Shown piece after piece: positions 20,853 through 26,600 of a stretch of DNA of 55,233 nucleotides. The notes under the pieces are model-generated. The model made no database searches and was not told the origin of the DNA. It worked only from the letters and a program-made list of their open reading frames with translations. The position numbers and the translations under genes are program-made. Positions within the stretch are counted from its first letter, which is position 1, and every line of letters begins with the position of its first letter. The stretch covers positions 1 through 55,233 of the forward strand of contig JACOTA010000070.1 of the NCBI GenBank assembly GCA_016178585.1, given 5' to 3'. Source of the stretch: Nitrospirota bacterium (lineage in GTDB: Bacteria > Nitrospirota > Nitrospiria > JACQBW01).

Positions 20853-21317
20853 ATGCTTAAGTTATCAAAAAAAATAGATTACGCCCTAATCGCCATGCAT
20901 TATATCGCGTTTATGGAAAATGATCAGGTGGTCAATACCAAAACGATTGCTGAAAAATACAATATCCCTTTAGAACTTCTCGCGAAAATTCTGCAGAAAT
21001 TGGCAAAGAAAGGTTTGGTCATTAGTCATAATGGGCCAAAGGGAGGGTATATTTTAGCAAAAGACCCGGCCGAAATTTCCGTAGGAGAGGTGATTCAGGC
21101 CATTGAGGGGCCGATTGGAATTGCCGAGTGCTATCATGATCGTGATAACCCCTGTTCTCAAAAGGCCAATTGTAATATTCGTACCCCCCTGGGCGTCATT
21201 CAAATGAGTATCATTAATTTATTGAGTGGCATTTCATTGTATCAGATGCATCAGGAAACCTTTGGTGCAACCTTCAATACTAACCATTCGAACATTGTTA
21301 ATTCTTTAATCAAGTAA
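20853..21317 (+). CDS. iscR: Rrf2-family Fe-S regulator, IscR-like
   Basis: 154 residues with the Rrf2 winged helix: KKIDYALIAMHYIA, then NIPLELLAKILQKLAKKGLV and GPKGGYILAKDP (recognition helix and wing). Three cysteines in ECYHDRDNPCSQKANC (spacing 7 and 5 residues) are the expected cluster ligands; E. coli IscR has 5 and 5. It is first in the isc operon, 13 bases before iscS, and probably senses Fe-S status and represses its own promoter. Because the spacing differs from IscR, the symbol is a best guess. Confidence 0.85.
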   Translation: MLKLSKKIDYALIAMHYIAFMENDQVVNTKTIAEKYNIPLELLAKILQKLAKKGLVISHNGPKGGYILAKDPAEISVGEVIQAIEGPIGIAECYHDRDNPCSQKANCNIRTPLGVIQMSIINLLSGISLYQMHQETFGATFNTNHSNIVNSLIK

Positions 21318-21330
21318 GGAGTAACGGGTA

Positions 21331-22551
21331 ATGGATTTGAAAACGCCGATTTTTATGGATAATCATTCGACAACCCCGGTTGACCCAAGGGTACTGGAGG
21401 CGATGATTCCTTATTTTACGGAAAAATTCGGAAATGCCGCGAGTCGGAATCACCTTTTTGGATGGGAAGCCGAAAAAGCCGTTGAGAATGCAAGAAATGA
21501 TATTGCCAGTCTGATTCATGCTGACCCCAAAGAGATCATTTTTACCAGCGGCGCCACAGAATCAAACAATCTTGCCTTAAAAGGCGTCGCTGAAATGTAC
21601 CGTGAAAAGGGAGGCCATATCATCAGCTCTGCGACTGAGCATCGCTCTGTTCTTGATACCGTGCGGCGTCTTGAAAAATCGGGCATGAAGGTCACGCTGG
21701 TTCCCGTCGATTCCCAGGGTATTGTTCATCCGGAAGAGATTCTAAAAGCGATTACGGATAAGACGATTTTGATTTCTGTGATGCTGGTCAATAATGAAAT
21801 CGGCACCATTAATCCGGTTGCGGAAATCGGAAAATTAGCCAAAGAAAAGGGAATTATTTTCCATTGTGATGCCACTCAGGGCGTTGGGAAAATCCCTGTC
21901 GATGTCGAAGCGATGAAAATTGATTTAATGTCTTTTACCGCCCATAAGATTTACGGTCCGAAAGGCGTTGGCGCTTTATATGTGAGAAGAAAAAACCCGA
22001 GAGTCCGGCTGGCTCCCCAGATGGACGGGGGCGGGCACGAAAGAGGGATGCGATCCGGGACTTTGAATGTTCCCGGGATTGTCGGGTTTGGCAAGGCCTG
22101 TCAAATTTGCAACGAGGTCATGCCCGAAGAATCCGCCAGAATCAAACGTTTGAGAGATAAATTGCAGGATGGGATCATGGGAGCGCTCGATTTTGTCCAT
22201 TTAAACGGACACCCCACGCTGAGAATTCCTAACAACCTCAATATCAGTTTCGCCTATGTGGAAGGAGAATCTCTGCTCATGGGATTAAATAAGATCGCCC
22301 TTTCTTCGGGATCCGCCTGTACGACGGCCACCCTTGAACCCTCTTATGTGTTGCGGGCGCTTGGCGTGGGACATGATTTAGCCCATTCCTCGATTCGTTT
22401 TGGAATAGGACGTTTTAACACCGAAGAAGAAGTGGATGAAGTGGCAAAAAGAACCATAGAGGCCGTAAGACGGTTACGGGAAATGTCTCCCCTCTATGAA
22501 ATGGCGTTAGAGGGCGTTGATTTAACAAAAGTACAATGGACCCAACATTAG
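21331..22551 (+). CDS. iscS: Cysteine desulfurase IscS
   Basis: 406 residues, near E. coli IscS (404). Key residues are present: H104 (TEHRS), D180 and Q183 (HCDATQ), the PLP lysine K206 in [10 protein letters not shown], and the persulfide cysteine C330 in [21 protein letters not shown]. It takes sulfur from cysteine and hands it to IscU for Fe-S assembly, and to other acceptors such as thiolation relays. It follows the regulator directly and has AAGGAG upstream. The C-terminal [13 protein letters not shown] is also IscS-like. Confidence 0.97.
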
Positions 22552-22581: not shown

Positions 22582-22992
22582 ATGTCCTATAGCGAAAAGG
22601 TCATCGATCATTACAATAACCCAAGAAACCTCGGCAGTTTTGATAAAAAGGATAAAAATATCGGAACGGGGATTGTTGGCGCTCCTGAATGCGGTGATGT
22701 CATGAAACTGCAGATCAAAGTCAATGAGGAAGGGGTTATTGAAGATGCCCGTTTTAAGACCTTTGGCTGTGGAAGCGCGATTGCCAGTTCAAGCCTCGCG
22801 ACTGAATGGGTCAAAGGAAAGACGATTGATGAGGCGTTGCAAATTAAAAATACCGATATCGTGAACGAGCTTAATCTGCCTCCTGTGAAAATCCATTGTT
22901 CGGTTTTGGCTGAAGACGCCATTAAAGCGGCCCTTTCGGACTATAAGAAAAAAGCGGAAGAGCAGGCATCGGTCGGCGCAGAAAAAAAATAG
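22582..22992 (+). CDS. iscU: Fe-S cluster scaffold IscU
   Basis: 136 residues with the scaffold ligands: Cys in GAPECGD with its following Asp, Cys in FKTFGCGSAIASSS, and Cys in KIHCSVLAEDAI. The LPPVKIHC segment is the site recognised by the HscA chaperone in E. coli. The C-terminal tail (KKKAEEQASVGAEKK) is a little longer than in E. coli. It receives sulfur from IscS and builds [2Fe-2S] and [4Fe-4S] clusters. AAGGAG precedes the ATG by 8 bases. Confidence 0.97.
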   Translation: MSYSEKVIDHYNNPRNLGSFDKKDKNIGTGIVGAPECGDVMKLQIKVNEEGVIEDARFKTFGCGSAIASSSLATEWVKGKTIDEALQIKNTDIVNELNLPPVKIHCSVLAEDAIKAALSDYKKKAEEQASVGAEKK

Positions 22993-23004
22993 TCCTTGAG
23001 CGGA

Positions 23005-23736
23005 ATGAATGATCAGATTTGTTGGTATTGTCAATCCGGGGTAAAGGATTATTTTTGCGTTAAATGCGGACGCATTCAGCCTATTCCCGCCTGTGACGAT
23101 TTTTTTTCCTATCTGGGTCTGGAGCGAAAGCTCAATTTAAACGCTCCAAAGCTTGAAAGGCGATTCCATACGCTAAGCCGTCTGTTTCATCCCGATTTTT
23201 TTCAAAGAAAATCTCCCGAGGAACAGGAGGTTAGTCTGGAAAATTCTTCAGTTTTAAATAAAGCCTACCGGACATTAAGGGATCCTATATCAAGACTTGA
23301 ATACCTGATACAGCTTGAAAAAGGGGATACCGGAGGGATTCGCGCCAAAGCTCCCCCCGATTTGCTTGAAGAGGTTCTGGAATTACAGGAAAAGCTTGGA
23401 GAGATCCGTGGTTTGAAGCAAGAAGGAAATCTTTATTTACTTGAAAATGCAAGAGGCGAGCTTAGAACAGAGCTCAAAAGTCTTGAAAACAGATTATTAA
23501 AACTTGAAGGCCGGATGATTCAATTGTCCGGTCAATGGGACGACTTGCCCCTTCCGGGGACGTCCCGCGGCGGTTTTGTTGAAGGCGGGCCGCAAGACCA
23601 GGAAATCAGGGGGGGGGGAGAAGACGCGGAAACGCGGCGTCGGAAGGGGGAAATACTTTCGGAATTTAGAAATATTCTTTCTCATCGGACGTATATTATG
23701 AATATTACCGAAGATATTAAAAAGGAACTATCCTGA
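23005..23736 (+). CDS. hscB: Co-chaperone HscB with N-terminal zinc finger
   Basis: 243 residues from ATG 23005 (a TTG at 22996 is the only earlier start). C6-x2-C9 and C18-x2-C21 form an N-terminal zinc finger like that of eukaryotic HSC20. The J domain follows with RLFHPDFF, then a C-terminal helical IscU-binding domain ending in ILSHRTYIMNITEDIKKEL. Between its helices sits a Gly/Arg-rich insert (about residues 180-213) that contains a run of ten G bases at 23609-23618. It delivers IscU to an Hsp70, but no hscA follows. Confidence 0.88.
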   Translation: MNDQICWYCQSGVKDYFCVKCGRIQPIPACDDFFSYLGLERKLNLNAPKLERRFHTLSRLFHPDFFQRKSPEEQEVSLENSSVLNKAYRTLRDPISRLEYLIQLEKGDTGGIRAKAPPDLLEEVLELQEKLGEIRGLKQEGNLYLLENARGELRTELKSLENRLLKLEGRMIQLSGQWDDLPLPGTSRGGFVEGGPQDQEIRGGGEDAETRRRKGEILSEFRNILSHRTYIMNITEDIKKELS

Positions 23737-23776: not shown

Positions 23777-24130
23777 ATGGAAACAACGACGCAAAAAGAG
23801 ATGGAACAGAAAAATAAAACCGGAAAGAAATATAAGATTGTGTTTCTTCCCATGAATGTGGAAAGTATGGCTAATGAAGGAGAAAGCATTCTCGACGCCG
23901 CGGAAAATTGCGGAGTGGACCTTCCCCATAACTGCGGCGGGGTCTGTGCCTGTTCAACCTGCCATGTGATCATCAAAGAGGGAATGGAAAAGCTGACTCC
24001 GAAACACGAAGAAGAGGAAGACCGTCTTGATATGGCGGAAAATCTGACGCTCGACTCACGGTTAGGATGCCAGGCAAGAATTTATGGCGATATTGTCGTG
24101 GAATTGCCGGAATGCACCCGGAAGGAGTAA
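23777..24130 (+). CDS. fdx: ISC-type [2Fe-2S] ferredoxin
   Basis: 117 residues, adrenodoxin-like. Cluster ligands follow C-x5-C-x2-C (NCGGVCACSTCHV) with the fourth cysteine in GCQAR. The region LTPKHEEEEDRLDMAENLTLDSRLGCQA is characteristic of ISC ferredoxins that donate electrons for cluster assembly. A 16-residue Lys/Glu-rich N-terminal extension precedes the fold. It follows hscB after 40 bases, where hscA would normally lie between. Confidence 0.95.
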   Translation: METTTQKEMEQKNKTGKKYKIVFLPMNVESMANEGESILDAAENCGVDLPHNCGGVCACSTCHVIIKEGMEKLTPKHEEEEDRLDMAENLTLDSRLGCQARIYGDIVVELPECTRKE

Positions 24131-24133
24131 CTA

Positions 24134-24340
24134 ATGGAATGGAGTAACATCGAAGATATTGCCATTTTGTTGGCAGAAAAATTTCCGAATACCGATCCGC
24201 TGACCGTCCGGTTTACGGAGATGCACAAATCGATCGTCAGCCTTCCCGGTTTTACGGGCGATCCGATGAAATCAAACGAAAAAATTCTGGAAGCGATCCA
24301 GATGGCCTGGCACGAAGAATACCAGGACGCGCATCAATAA
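24134..24340 (+). CDS. iscX: IscX, ISC-associated small acidic protein
   Basis: 68 residues matching IscX (YfhJ): WSNIEDIAILLAEKFPNTDP, VRFTEMHKSIVSLPGF and SNEKILEAIQMAWHEE. In E. coli IscX binds IscS and iron and tunes the rate of assembly. It lies 3 bases after fdx and ends the operon. Confidence 0.93.
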   Translation: MEWSNIEDIAILLAEKFPNTDPLTVRFTEMHKSIVSLPGFTGDPMKSNEKILEAIQMAWHEEYQDAHQ

Positions 24341-24403: not shown

Positions 24404-24670
24404 TTACCAGCCCACCACGGAATCGGCCTCAAACATCAAATCAATGAACTCACCATAACCAATCACCTCAACCCCCTGAGGAAGGGGAGCGGGGAGAGGG
24501 GTCTCATCTTTCAAGAGATAGGTTTTAGATTTCCATCTCGGTTTGACCTTGATGCCGTCTTGAATAAGGACGACCCTCATATTGGCAGGATTAGACCGGG
24601 ACAGCTCCTCAATCATAGTCAAAGCTGTATGATCAGAAGCGTTTTTTAATATATGAAGGAATTTCTTCAT
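24404..24670 (-). CDS. DsrH/TusB-like sulfur-relay protein with repeat-derived insert
   Basis: 88 residues. The C-terminal IGYGEFIDLMFEADSVVGW fits the DsrH/TusB end pattern (Y-x2-F-[VI]-x-L ... W), and the N-terminal MKKFLHILKNASDH also fits. It has no cysteine, so it would be structural. In the middle is DETPLPAPLPQG, encoded by a C/G-rich stretch (about 24466-24506) that looks like a dispersed intergenic repeat inserted in frame. It is the last of three adjacent DsrE/F/H-type genes. Confidence 0.65.
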   Translation of the reverse strand: MKKFLHILKNASDHTALTMIEELSRSNPANMRVVLIQDGIKVKPRWKSKTYLLKDETPLPAPLPQGVEVIGYGEFIDLMFEADSVVGW

Positions 24671-24671
24671 T

Positions 24672-25037
24672 TCAAAATATTAAAAACCGGTCTCCTTGCG
24701 CCATTTTTTCGGCGATTTTTTCTCTGGAAACCGGTTCGTAAGGATAAATCGTATCAAATTCCGGGTGTTCTTTTAAAAAAGTCTCTTCTACAAAAAACGG
24801 CTGTTCAGCGTCTTCGAAATTAGAAATGTATTTTTCGAGCGTGTCAAAATCGGCGATTTTATCCCTTTCTTCTGTTAAAAGATAAGGGGCCTGTCCCATT
24901 AAAATAATGTCGACGCGGTTTATTCCGCTCCCCAGGCCCAGTGCCATACGAATGGCTTCTACAGCTCTTGGCGATTGAAAGGGGTCCTCTTTGACGAGAA
25001 CAATGATATGGAGCGGCTTTTTTTCAGAGTGATTCAT
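24672..25037 (-). CDS. DsrE/DsrF-family protein (TusC position)
   Basis: 121 residues. HIIVLVKEDPFQSPRAVEAIRMALGLG matches the start of DsrE-fold proteins (strand, loop, helix over a subunit interface), and VDIILMGQAPYLL gives the second strand. It contains no cysteine. Position between a DsrE-like and a DsrH-like gene makes it the DsrF/TusC equivalent. In the known TusBCD and DsrEFH systems these three form a hexamer that passes persulfide sulfur; here only the first gene carries cysteines. Confidence 0.65.
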   Translation of the reverse strand: MNHSEKKPLHIIVLVKEDPFQSPRAVEAIRMALGLGSGINRVDIILMGQAPYLLTEERDKIADFDTLEKYISNFEDAEQPFFVEETFLKEHPEFDTIYPYEPVSREKIAEKMAQGDRFLIF

Positions 25038-25041
25038 AAGG

Positions 25042-25353
25042 TTAATTGAGGGAGAAGAATCTGTCCGTCCCCTCCATCAAAGTCGACAAAATCACCAAAC
25101 CGCAGTAAGTCGCCCGGGGGTCGTCGATCGGGATGTTCCGGTTTTGACAGCCGTAAGCGCAGACAAACAGTTTTGCCCCCTGTTTTTTCAGATCAAAGAG
25201 GGAGTCATTTTTTAAATTATAAACCCCGTCATCCGTGACATATAAATAGACATCGATCTTTTTATCGAGAGCGGTTCTGGCCACTTCAAGCGTGGTTTTT
25301 GTACCGGGATCTTCGGGTTTGGTTGTCAGAACGATGGCCATCTTTTTCTGCAT
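25042..25353 (-). CDS. DsrE-family protein (TusD position)
   Basis: 103 residues. MAIVLTTKPEDPGTKTTLEVARTAL and VDVYLYVTDDGVY-like strands are typical DsrE fold. Cys65 and Cys69 in KLFVCAYGCQNRNI sit where DsrE/TusD carry the persulfide cysteine, so this would be the sulfur-carrying member. First gene of the minus-strand trio, 98 bases from the divergent desulfurase-like gene; the shared gap holds a perfect 17-bp palindrome. Confidence 0.7.
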   Translation of the reverse strand: MQKKMAIVLTTKPEDPGTKTTLEVARTALDKKIDVYLYVTDDGVYNLKNDSLFDLKKQGAKLFVCAYGCQNRNIPIDDPRATYCGLVILSTLMEGTDRFFSLN

Positions 25354-25411: not shown

Positions 25412-25451
25412 TATCGTCGCGCAGACCAATAAAACTAAAAGGAGAATTACC

Positions 25452-26600
25452 ATTAAAAGTATCTATCTGGATTATCTCAGTGCGGCTTCCATACTTCCTG
25501 AAGCTTATGAAGGGATGCTTCCCTATTTATCGGAGTCGCACGGAAACCCTCAGAGCCTCCATGCATGGGGAAAAGAGGCCCGTGAGGCGGTTGAAGCCGC
25601 GCGGAGGGAAGTGGCCCTTTTAATCGGGGCAGATTCCGGCGAAATTTACTTTACCTCCTCCGGATCCGAATCGAACAATTGGGTCGTTAAAGGGGTCTCT
25701 TCCTTTTTTAGAAAAAAGGGGAATCACATCATGACCAGTGCTGTTGAGCATGTATCGCTGACCAATCCTCTCAGGACTTTGATGACACAGGGATTCGCGG
25801 TGACCTTTCTCCCGGTCGATGCCTCAGGCCGGATGAACCCGGACGACATTGAAAGAAATATCACCGAGCGAAGCCTTTTATTGACCTTTCATCATGCGCA
25901 AAGTGAAATCGGAACGATTCAGCCGGTCAAAGACCTCGGTGAAATCGCGCGAAAATCCAATCTTTTGTTTCATCTGGACGGCGTGGCCGCGGCGGGCTTG
26001 ATCCCGGTGGATGTCAAAACCCTCGGGGTTGATTTTTACACCCTCTCCGCTCAATCGGTTTATGGTCCAAAAGGGATTGCCGCGCTTTATATCAAAAAGG
26101 GGAGACGGCTGGACCGGTTAATCGAAGGGGGAAACCAGGAAGAGGGACGGCGCGCAGGTTTGGAAAATGTTCCCGGGATTGTGGGATTCGGGATCGCCGC
26201 GCGTCATGCCAGAGAACATCTGGCCGAACGCCGGGCCTCCCTGTGCGCCAGGAGAGATCGCCTGATCCAGGGGATTTTGAGCGCTGTTGCGGGATGTCAC
26301 CTGACGGGAGACCCGGTTCACCGCCTGCCTCACCACGCCAGTTTTTATTTCGAAGGGATCGAAGGGGAAGCGCTCGTTCTTTTACTGGCCAGGGAAGGCG
26401 TTGCCGCGGCCACCGGTTCCAGCTGCGTTTCCGGAGCGGTCAAGCCCCCTTCCGTGTTAACGGCGTTGGGAATACCGCCGGTTCAGGCGAGAGGGTCGCT
26501 CGTTTTAACGCTGGGATGGAAGACGACCGATGAAGAGATCAAAGAAGCCGTTCCTATCATTGCGAAATCTGTTGAAAAGTTAAGAAGACTTAACCCCTAA
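25452..26600 (+). CDS. Cysteine-desulfurase paralogue lacking the PLP lysine
   Basis: 382 residues if begun at ATT 25452. The family N-terminus (SIYLDYLSAASILPEAYEG) is encoded in frame upstream of the first ATG (25515), and AAAGGAG lies 7 bases before the ATT; no ATG, GTG or TTG serves. The fold is IscS/NifS-like, and the persulfide Cys325 (TGSSCVSGAVKPPSVL) remains. The PLP lysine is gone: where IscS has [10 protein letters not shown] this has SAQSVYGPKG, with Ser202 for Lys and Gln201 for His. The helper Gln of HCDATQ is also lost (HLDGVA). It is therefore unlikely to be a normal desulfurase; a persulfide carrier or scaffold is possible. Confidence 0.82.
   Translation: MKSIYLDYLSAASILPEAYEGMLPYLSESHGNPQSLHAWGKEAREAVEAARREVALLIGADSGEIYFTSSGSESNNWVVKGVSSFFRKKGNHIMTSAVEHVSLTNPLRTLMTQGFAVTFLPVDASGRMNPDDIERNITERSLLLTFHHAQSEIGTIQPVKDLGEIARKSNLLFHLDGVAAAGLIPVDVKTLGVDFYTLSAQSVYGPKGIAALYIKKGRRLDRLIEGGNQEEGRRAGLENVPGIVGFGIAARHAREHLAERRASLCARRDRLIQGILSAVAGCHLTGDPVHRLPHHASFYFEGIEGEALVLLLAREGVAAATGSSCVSGAVKPPSVLTALGIPPVQARGSLVLTLGWKTTDEEIKEAVPIIAKSVEKLRRLNP

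Follow-up and report, generated by a model that had tools for sequence, protein, structure and literature searches.

A lysine-less IscS/NifS-fold protein encoded beside isc genes in Nitrospirota: a possible sulfur relay in place of a cysteine desulfurase

A gene on the forward strand at 25452..26600 of a Nitrospirota contig (the window, by which we mean the whole analysed stretch of 55,233 nucleotides) encodes a protein of 382 residues which, as judged from its translation, alignments and fold model, belongs to the IscS/NifS fold and lacks the PLP lysine. We consider it, with a probability of about one half, to have descended from IscS/NifS without remaining a desulfurase, and to pass on or hold sulfur for carriers of the TusA/DsrE type and for IscU. 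According to the alignments and the predicted structure, the fold and the mobile cysteine loop remain, and the Schiff-base lysine, its histidine neighbour, Gln183 and the substrate-binding arginine are gone. We infer that it serves as a docking and relay protein and would not extract cysteine sulfur fast enough to be useful.

Cysteine desulfurases are generally regarded as the point from which almost all sulfur transfer in biology begins. If our reading is correct, some microbes assemble clusters from sulfur that is held as persulfide beforehand and do not need cysteine for this; in these phyla the annotation 'cysteine desulfurase' may often be given to genes whose products are not desulfurases, and the puzzle of Archaeoglobus fulgidus IscS2 gains a family context. 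Lysine-less IscS proteins are already known from A. fulgidus, from Methanosarcina acetivorans (IscS1) and from PDB entry 9wfy. In the literature searched, which left most subscription journals outside, we found no description of the breadth of the group, the joint loss of the arginine, the linkage to TusA and DsrE2 or the variant IscU described below.

Active-site residues and integrity of the gene

Sequence and profile searches match the protein over its whole length to cysteine desulfurases. In E. coli IscS, the aldimine is formed by Lys206, with His104 stacked on the ring and Asp180 and Gln183 bonded to PLP; the carboxylate of the substrate is bound by Arg354, and the persulfide is carried on Cys328. 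Mutation of His104, Asp180, Gln183, Lys206 or Cys328 costs activity, R354K being the exception, and K206A retains very low activity (PMC9978102). In the protein of the window, the segment SAQSVYGPKG forms residues 199–208, with Ser202 (codon TCG, 26055..26057) in place of the PLP lysine and Gln201 at the position of the neighbouring histidine. The DATQ glutamine is also lost, the sequence being DGVA with Ala179 for Gln183 (E. coli numbering), and Cys325 of the persulfide loop is retained (TGC, 26424..26426). These features had been noted in a preliminary description and are borne out by the translation, that of Ser202 by the alignments as well. A further loss, absent from that description, is that of Arg354 (E. 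coli numbering), which is Val351 here. His100 and Asp176, equivalent to His104 and Asp180 in E. coli, are kept. The possibility that a different lysine fills the PLP site is excluded, since none does so in any alignment. Set against the hallmarks of a type I cysteine desulfurase, the protein has the persulfide-loop cysteine and lacks both the Schiff-base lysine and the arginine for the substrate carboxylate; it also falls below the curated NCBIfam cut-offs for NifS (412 against 530.75 bits) and IscS (336 against 643.2 bits).

The model of the protein (pLDDT 92.7) has the IscS/NifS fold. Only residues 326–330, just past Cys325, form a segment with pLDDT below 50, as expected of a mobile persulfide loop. 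The best fold matches are Nfs1, A. fulgidus IscS (4hvk and 4eb5) and E. coli IscS with TusA or IscU, and the nearest solved proteins by sequence are variants of an Aquificaceae protein (apparent wild type 9wfy, lysine-less), followed by A. fulgidus IscS2. Fold and cysteine loop are thus common to the protein and to canonical IscS/NifS, of which TusA is a known partner (E. coli IscS–TusA, 3lvj); unlike these enzymes, it is without the set of lysine, glutamine and arginine needed for cysteine desulfuration.

A. fulgidus IscS2 (4eb5, 4hvk; 40–41% identity in structural alignment) shares with our protein the fold, the loss of the lysine, histidine, Gln183 and Arg354 and the retention of the loop cysteine. 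The substitutions in IscS2 are Asp for Lys, Asn for His, Ala for Gln and Leu for Arg, the lysine site being Ser in the window, and IscS2 has been solved in complex with IscU, whereas our gene has no dedicated IscU or TusA gene beside it. The preliminary description had drawn this comparison and added that the archaeal protein binds no PLP. The absence of the lysine (Asp199; D199K is PDB 4r5f) and of desulfurase activity (PMC7585200) stands; the statement on PLP is not safe, and according to one figure legend in PMC9769115, 4EB5 is drawn with PLP. The Aquificaceae NifS-like protein (9wfy; variants 9wep, 9wer, 9wew, 9wf8, 9wfb and 9wfe), for which no paper was found in the literature searched (most subscription journals lying outside it), is likewise lysine-less and keeps the loop cysteine, with Leu at the lysine site and Val at the arginine site. 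M. acetivorans IscS1 (MA0808), also reported to be without the lysine, is paired with iscU1. The minimal ISC system MIS (MisS–MisU) is an iscS–iscU-like two-gene system described with a cysteine desulfurase, and our gene is not part of a stand-alone pair of this type.

The evident start codon is an ATT at 25452..25454. We regard it as the likely start because no in-frame ATG, GTG or TTG occurs before codon 22 of the open reading frame, a ribosome-binding site (AAAAGGAG, 25437..25444) lies 7 nt ahead, and the ATT aligns with an ATT in one other genus of the family (G001) and an ATG in another (G002). The start would thus be ATT in two genera and ATG in a third; in G001 a strong ribosome-binding site precedes the ATT, and an in-frame stop codon lies a short way upstream. 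ATT is rare as a start codon, and this one may lead to controlled, low expression.

The gene is carried by the same two genera, G002 (60% identity, same SAQS) and G001 (N-terminal fragment only). The residue losses are not a sequencing slip, because of this presence in two other genera and because the losses are common to 40 aligned lysine-less proteins. With dN at 0.345 and dS at 2.78 (saturated), the coding sequence is apparently maintained by purifying selection. A pseudogene or an assembly error is ruled out by the full-length open reading frame, conservation in the family, differences that are mostly at third positions and dN far below dS.

Neighbouring genes in the window

Upstream on the same strand lie genes for an Rrf2-family regulator resembling IscR (20853..21317), a canonical IscS with both the PLP lysine and the arginine (21331..22551) and an IscU with the LPPVK motif and all cluster ligands (22582..22992), each identified by profile match and the latter two also by alignment. 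They are followed by an HscB-like co-chaperone (22996..23736; profile and Pfam), a [2Fe–2S] ferredoxin of the ISC type (23777..24130; best match fdx_isc, under the curated cut-off) and IscX (24134..24340; Fe-S_assembly, PF04384). The isc operon had been called complete; hscA and iscA are on another contig (C38), and this part of the preliminary description does not hold. The canonical iscS and the lysine-less gene are 2.9 kb apart and their products are 40% identical. The only IscU gene of the window is the one that follows iscS, and neither TusA nor a dedicated IscU is encoded beside the lysine-less gene.

Between the isc genes and the lysine-less gene, on the opposite strand, is a trio of the DsrE superfamily in the order dsrE–dsrF–dsrH (tusD–tusC–tusB). 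The first gene, divergent from ours, encodes a DsrE/TusD-like protein with the motif LFVCAYGCQ (Cys65; 25042..25353, Pfam DsrE); the second a DsrF/TusC-like protein (24672..25037, Pfam DsrE); and the third a DsrH/TusB-like protein with a C-terminal tryptophan (24404..24670), its TusB match being weak and below cut-off. All three have matching counterparts in the genome's second DsrEFH set, located on contig C31 between two TusA genes. The arrangement of isc genes and trio recurs in G002, G004 and G036, and the G001 fragment fits the same layout.

Lysine-less homologues and their genomic linkage

Homologues were sought among 40 relatives, 197 members of the window's class and GTDB contigs. Lysine-less proteins occur in about nine families of the class, where search scores separate them (at least 549 bits) from canonical IscS (at most 456 bits). 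Outside the class, record titles place them in Anaerolineales, Dehalococcoidia, Acidobacteria, Deltaproteobacteria, Thermodesulfovibrionia, Magnetobacterium and Smithella, as well as Aminicenantes, Saganbacteria, Omnitrophota, Aquificaceae and one euryarchaeon. In that euryarchaeon the lysine-less homologue (SAHRFYGPKG) lies directly upstream of a lysine-bearing one (L171 and L187, G209:C108). Most genomes with a lysine-less gene also encode a lysine-bearing IscS/NifS; in four, which may be incomplete, no lysine-bearing type I homologue was found.

We tabulated active-site residues for 40 lysine-less sequences, A. fulgidus IscS2 and 9wfy among them, and 62 lysine-bearing ones. In the lysine-less set the lysine site is Q in 25, S in four, P in four, L in three, T in two, R in one and D in one; the arginine site is V (27), L (11) or I (2) and never Arg. 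The loop cysteine, His104 and Asp180 are each present in 40 of 40. Lysine-bearing sequences have the arginine in 61 of 62 and the glutamine in 60 of 62. The exception lacking the arginine, L044 (10001–11146), keeps the lysine, has also lost Gln183, adjoins IscU and TusA and falls near the lysine-less sequences in a quick tree; it may represent a stage on the way to losing desulfurase chemistry. The same residue pattern appears in a fresh sample drawn from two further phyla, comprising 31 lysine-less sequences (one read by eye, and two repeating earlier loci, L195 = L047 and L226 = L066) and 29 lysine-bearing ones. An apparent fusion protein, L246, with an open frame of 887 codons, was discarded as a spurious open frame in GC-rich DNA.

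In the quick tree the lysine state changes three times and A. fulgidus IscS2 falls within the lysine-bearing set, with 9wfy grouping with the lysine-less proteins. A separate origin of the A. fulgidus loss was not upheld, since the tree constrained to hold all lysine-less proteins together scored 29.3 lnL higher (AU test, p-AU 0.797); a single origin that includes A. fulgidus is neither rejected nor established.

A TusA gene lies within 2.5 kb of 15 of 23 lysine-less genes and of one of 57 lysine-bearing genes, the single case being L044 (Fisher 1e-9), and DsrE2 is near five of 23 against none of 57. In the fresh sample the corresponding figures were 16/31 against 0/29 for TusA (2.5e-6), 11/31 against 0/29 for DsrE2 and 24/31 against 12/29 for IscU, the commonest neighbour. 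These p-values overstate independence because some of these loci also went into the TusA profile, the flanks are of unequal length and the sequences are related; nor are the counts independent, because loss of the lysine represents one or a few events, and a test of the TusA linkage with independent pairs had only one or two pairs and hence no power. The stronger point is that the linkage is kept across phyla at about 45% protein identity.

Within the window's class, TusA lies 0–428 bp from 12 of 16 lysine-less genes; the window's gene (L001), L003, L017 and L020 are without it, so that sequence similarity, not neighbours, would place our protein in the TusA-linked group. Most of the class members pair the lysine-less gene with TusA and have no dedicated iscU beside it. 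The typical orders are rrf2–tusA–lysine-less gene–iscU (L041, L049, L053) and lysine-less gene–iscU–dsrE2–tusA (L036, L047), L053 coming from Magnetobacterium casense and L047 from Dehalococcoidia; in the representatives submitted to Pfam, TusA, DsrE2 and NifU_N are confirmed. The IscU proteins encoded beside lysine-less genes have the cluster ligands C37/D39/C63/C106 in 31 of 31 cases and mostly carry LPKNK or LPKQK (LPKxK) where canonical IscU has LPPVK, the HscA-recognition motif.

In many class members the lysine-less gene and tusA are immediately preceded by a gene resembling fatty-acid desaturases (a cluster seen in 11 loci, for example L129 2829–3689 and L131 7848–8720). In Aquificaceae, relatives of 9wfy (L102, 3306–4358, and L098) follow a gene for an Fe–S carrier ATPase of the Mrp/ApbC type; TusA and IscU were not found near these two.

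Proposed role and alternatives

The preliminary description had proposed a persulfide acceptor or scaffold rather than a desulfurase. The joint loss of lysine, glutamine and arginine, the invariant cysteine and the linkage of relatives to TusA and IscU lend this partial support, and that linkage points to TusA/DsrE-type carriers as the probable partners. We envisage that a persulfide would arrive on Cys325 from a sulfur carrier, which would be TusA in most relatives and, in the genome of the window, might be the DsrEFH-like complex, another TusA or the neighbouring IscS; the IscS encoded at 21331 had been put forward as donor and is a possible one. Cys325 would then hand the persulfide to an IscU-type scaffold, or its thiol would help to hold the nascent cluster there. 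Since the cysteine of TusA is about 4 Å from Cys328 when docked on E. coli IscS (PMC2854127), and TusA and IscU compete for IscS (PMC11302665), these surfaces could also serve for transfer the other way. Sequence alone does not tell in which direction sulfur moves.

Relatives with the full cluster, in either of the two orders given above, would on this proposal possess an Fe–S assembly module supplied by carriers and not by cysteine, of which the window's family would retain only the lysine-less protein, next to the isc operon and the DsrEFH-like trio. Speaking against a relay, this family (f1) has neither TusA nor a dedicated IscU adjoining, and the nearest IscU belongs to iscS; the residual activity of E. 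coli K206A and the chance that PLP or PMP still binds, given the kept His104 and Asp180, count against it as well. We offer only tentatively the wider picture of a module widespread in anaerobes (TusA, lysine-less IscS, LPKxK IscU and often DsrE2) that is fed by TusA/DsrE persulfide carriers instead of cysteine, the protein of the window being a trimmed descendant, possibly expressed at a low level from its ATT start and fed by the adjoining trio.

The protein might instead transfer no sulfur and act in the manner suggested for A. fulgidus IscS2, the loop cysteine serving as a ligand that stabilizes a [2Fe–2S] cluster on IscU, with inorganic sulfide as the sulfur source. That function has been proposed for IscS2 (PMC7585200), which has the same set of losses; our model matches 4hvk and 4eb5, IscU with its ligands kept is a neighbour in many phyla, and the tree test is compatible with a single origin of all the lysine-less proteins, that of A. 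fulgidus among them (p-AU 0.80). Such a role would not account for the linkage to TusA and DsrE2, or for the fact that most class members have no iscU of their own alongside, and we hold it to be a minority possibility, though a real one. Rather less likely is a docking station between TusA and DsrEFH/TusBCD-like proteins that acts in tRNA thiolation or inorganic sulfur metabolism and not in Fe–S assembly. The divergent dsrE–dsrF–dsrH-ordered trio, the pairing with TusA and not IscU in most class members and the exchange of persulfide in both directions between TusA and DsrEFH of type II (PMC13293266) would suit it; in the fresh sample from two phyla, however, IscU was the commonest neighbour and TusA second.

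The presence of a lysine-bearing IscS/NifS in most of the genomes, 2.9 kb away in the window, could suggest a catalytically silent regulator that pairs with the canonical IscS or competes with it for IscU, TusA or other partners. We find this improbable: identity to the presumed partner is 40%, a regulator would not need a loop cysteine invariant in 40 of 40 sequences, and four lysine-less genomes (maybe incomplete) yielded no lysine-bearing type I homologue. An enzyme dependent on PLP or PMP, with altered chemistry and another substrate, is very improbable. Purified A. fulgidus IscS carried PMP, and because the invariant His104 and Asp180 contact PLP in IscS, either cofactor may still bind; the solved variants of the Aquificaceae homologue, moreover, differ from the apparent wild type 9wfy at the lysine, arginine and other residues. 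The arginine, however, is gone from all lysine-less proteins, and a new catalytic residue at the lysine site is unlikely, since that position varies freely among Q, S, P, L, T, R, D and A.

The genome of the window contains further genes for sulfur carriers. The second cluster, on the minus strand of C31 (L150, 7119–9870), encodes TusA, DsrE, DsrF, DsrH, TusA, a DsrE2-type protein and an Rrf2 regulator. On C42 (L151, 8346–13153), an 840-residue nitrite/sulfite reductase with a C-terminal TusA domain adjoins a ferredoxin and an FAD protein that resemble AprBA.
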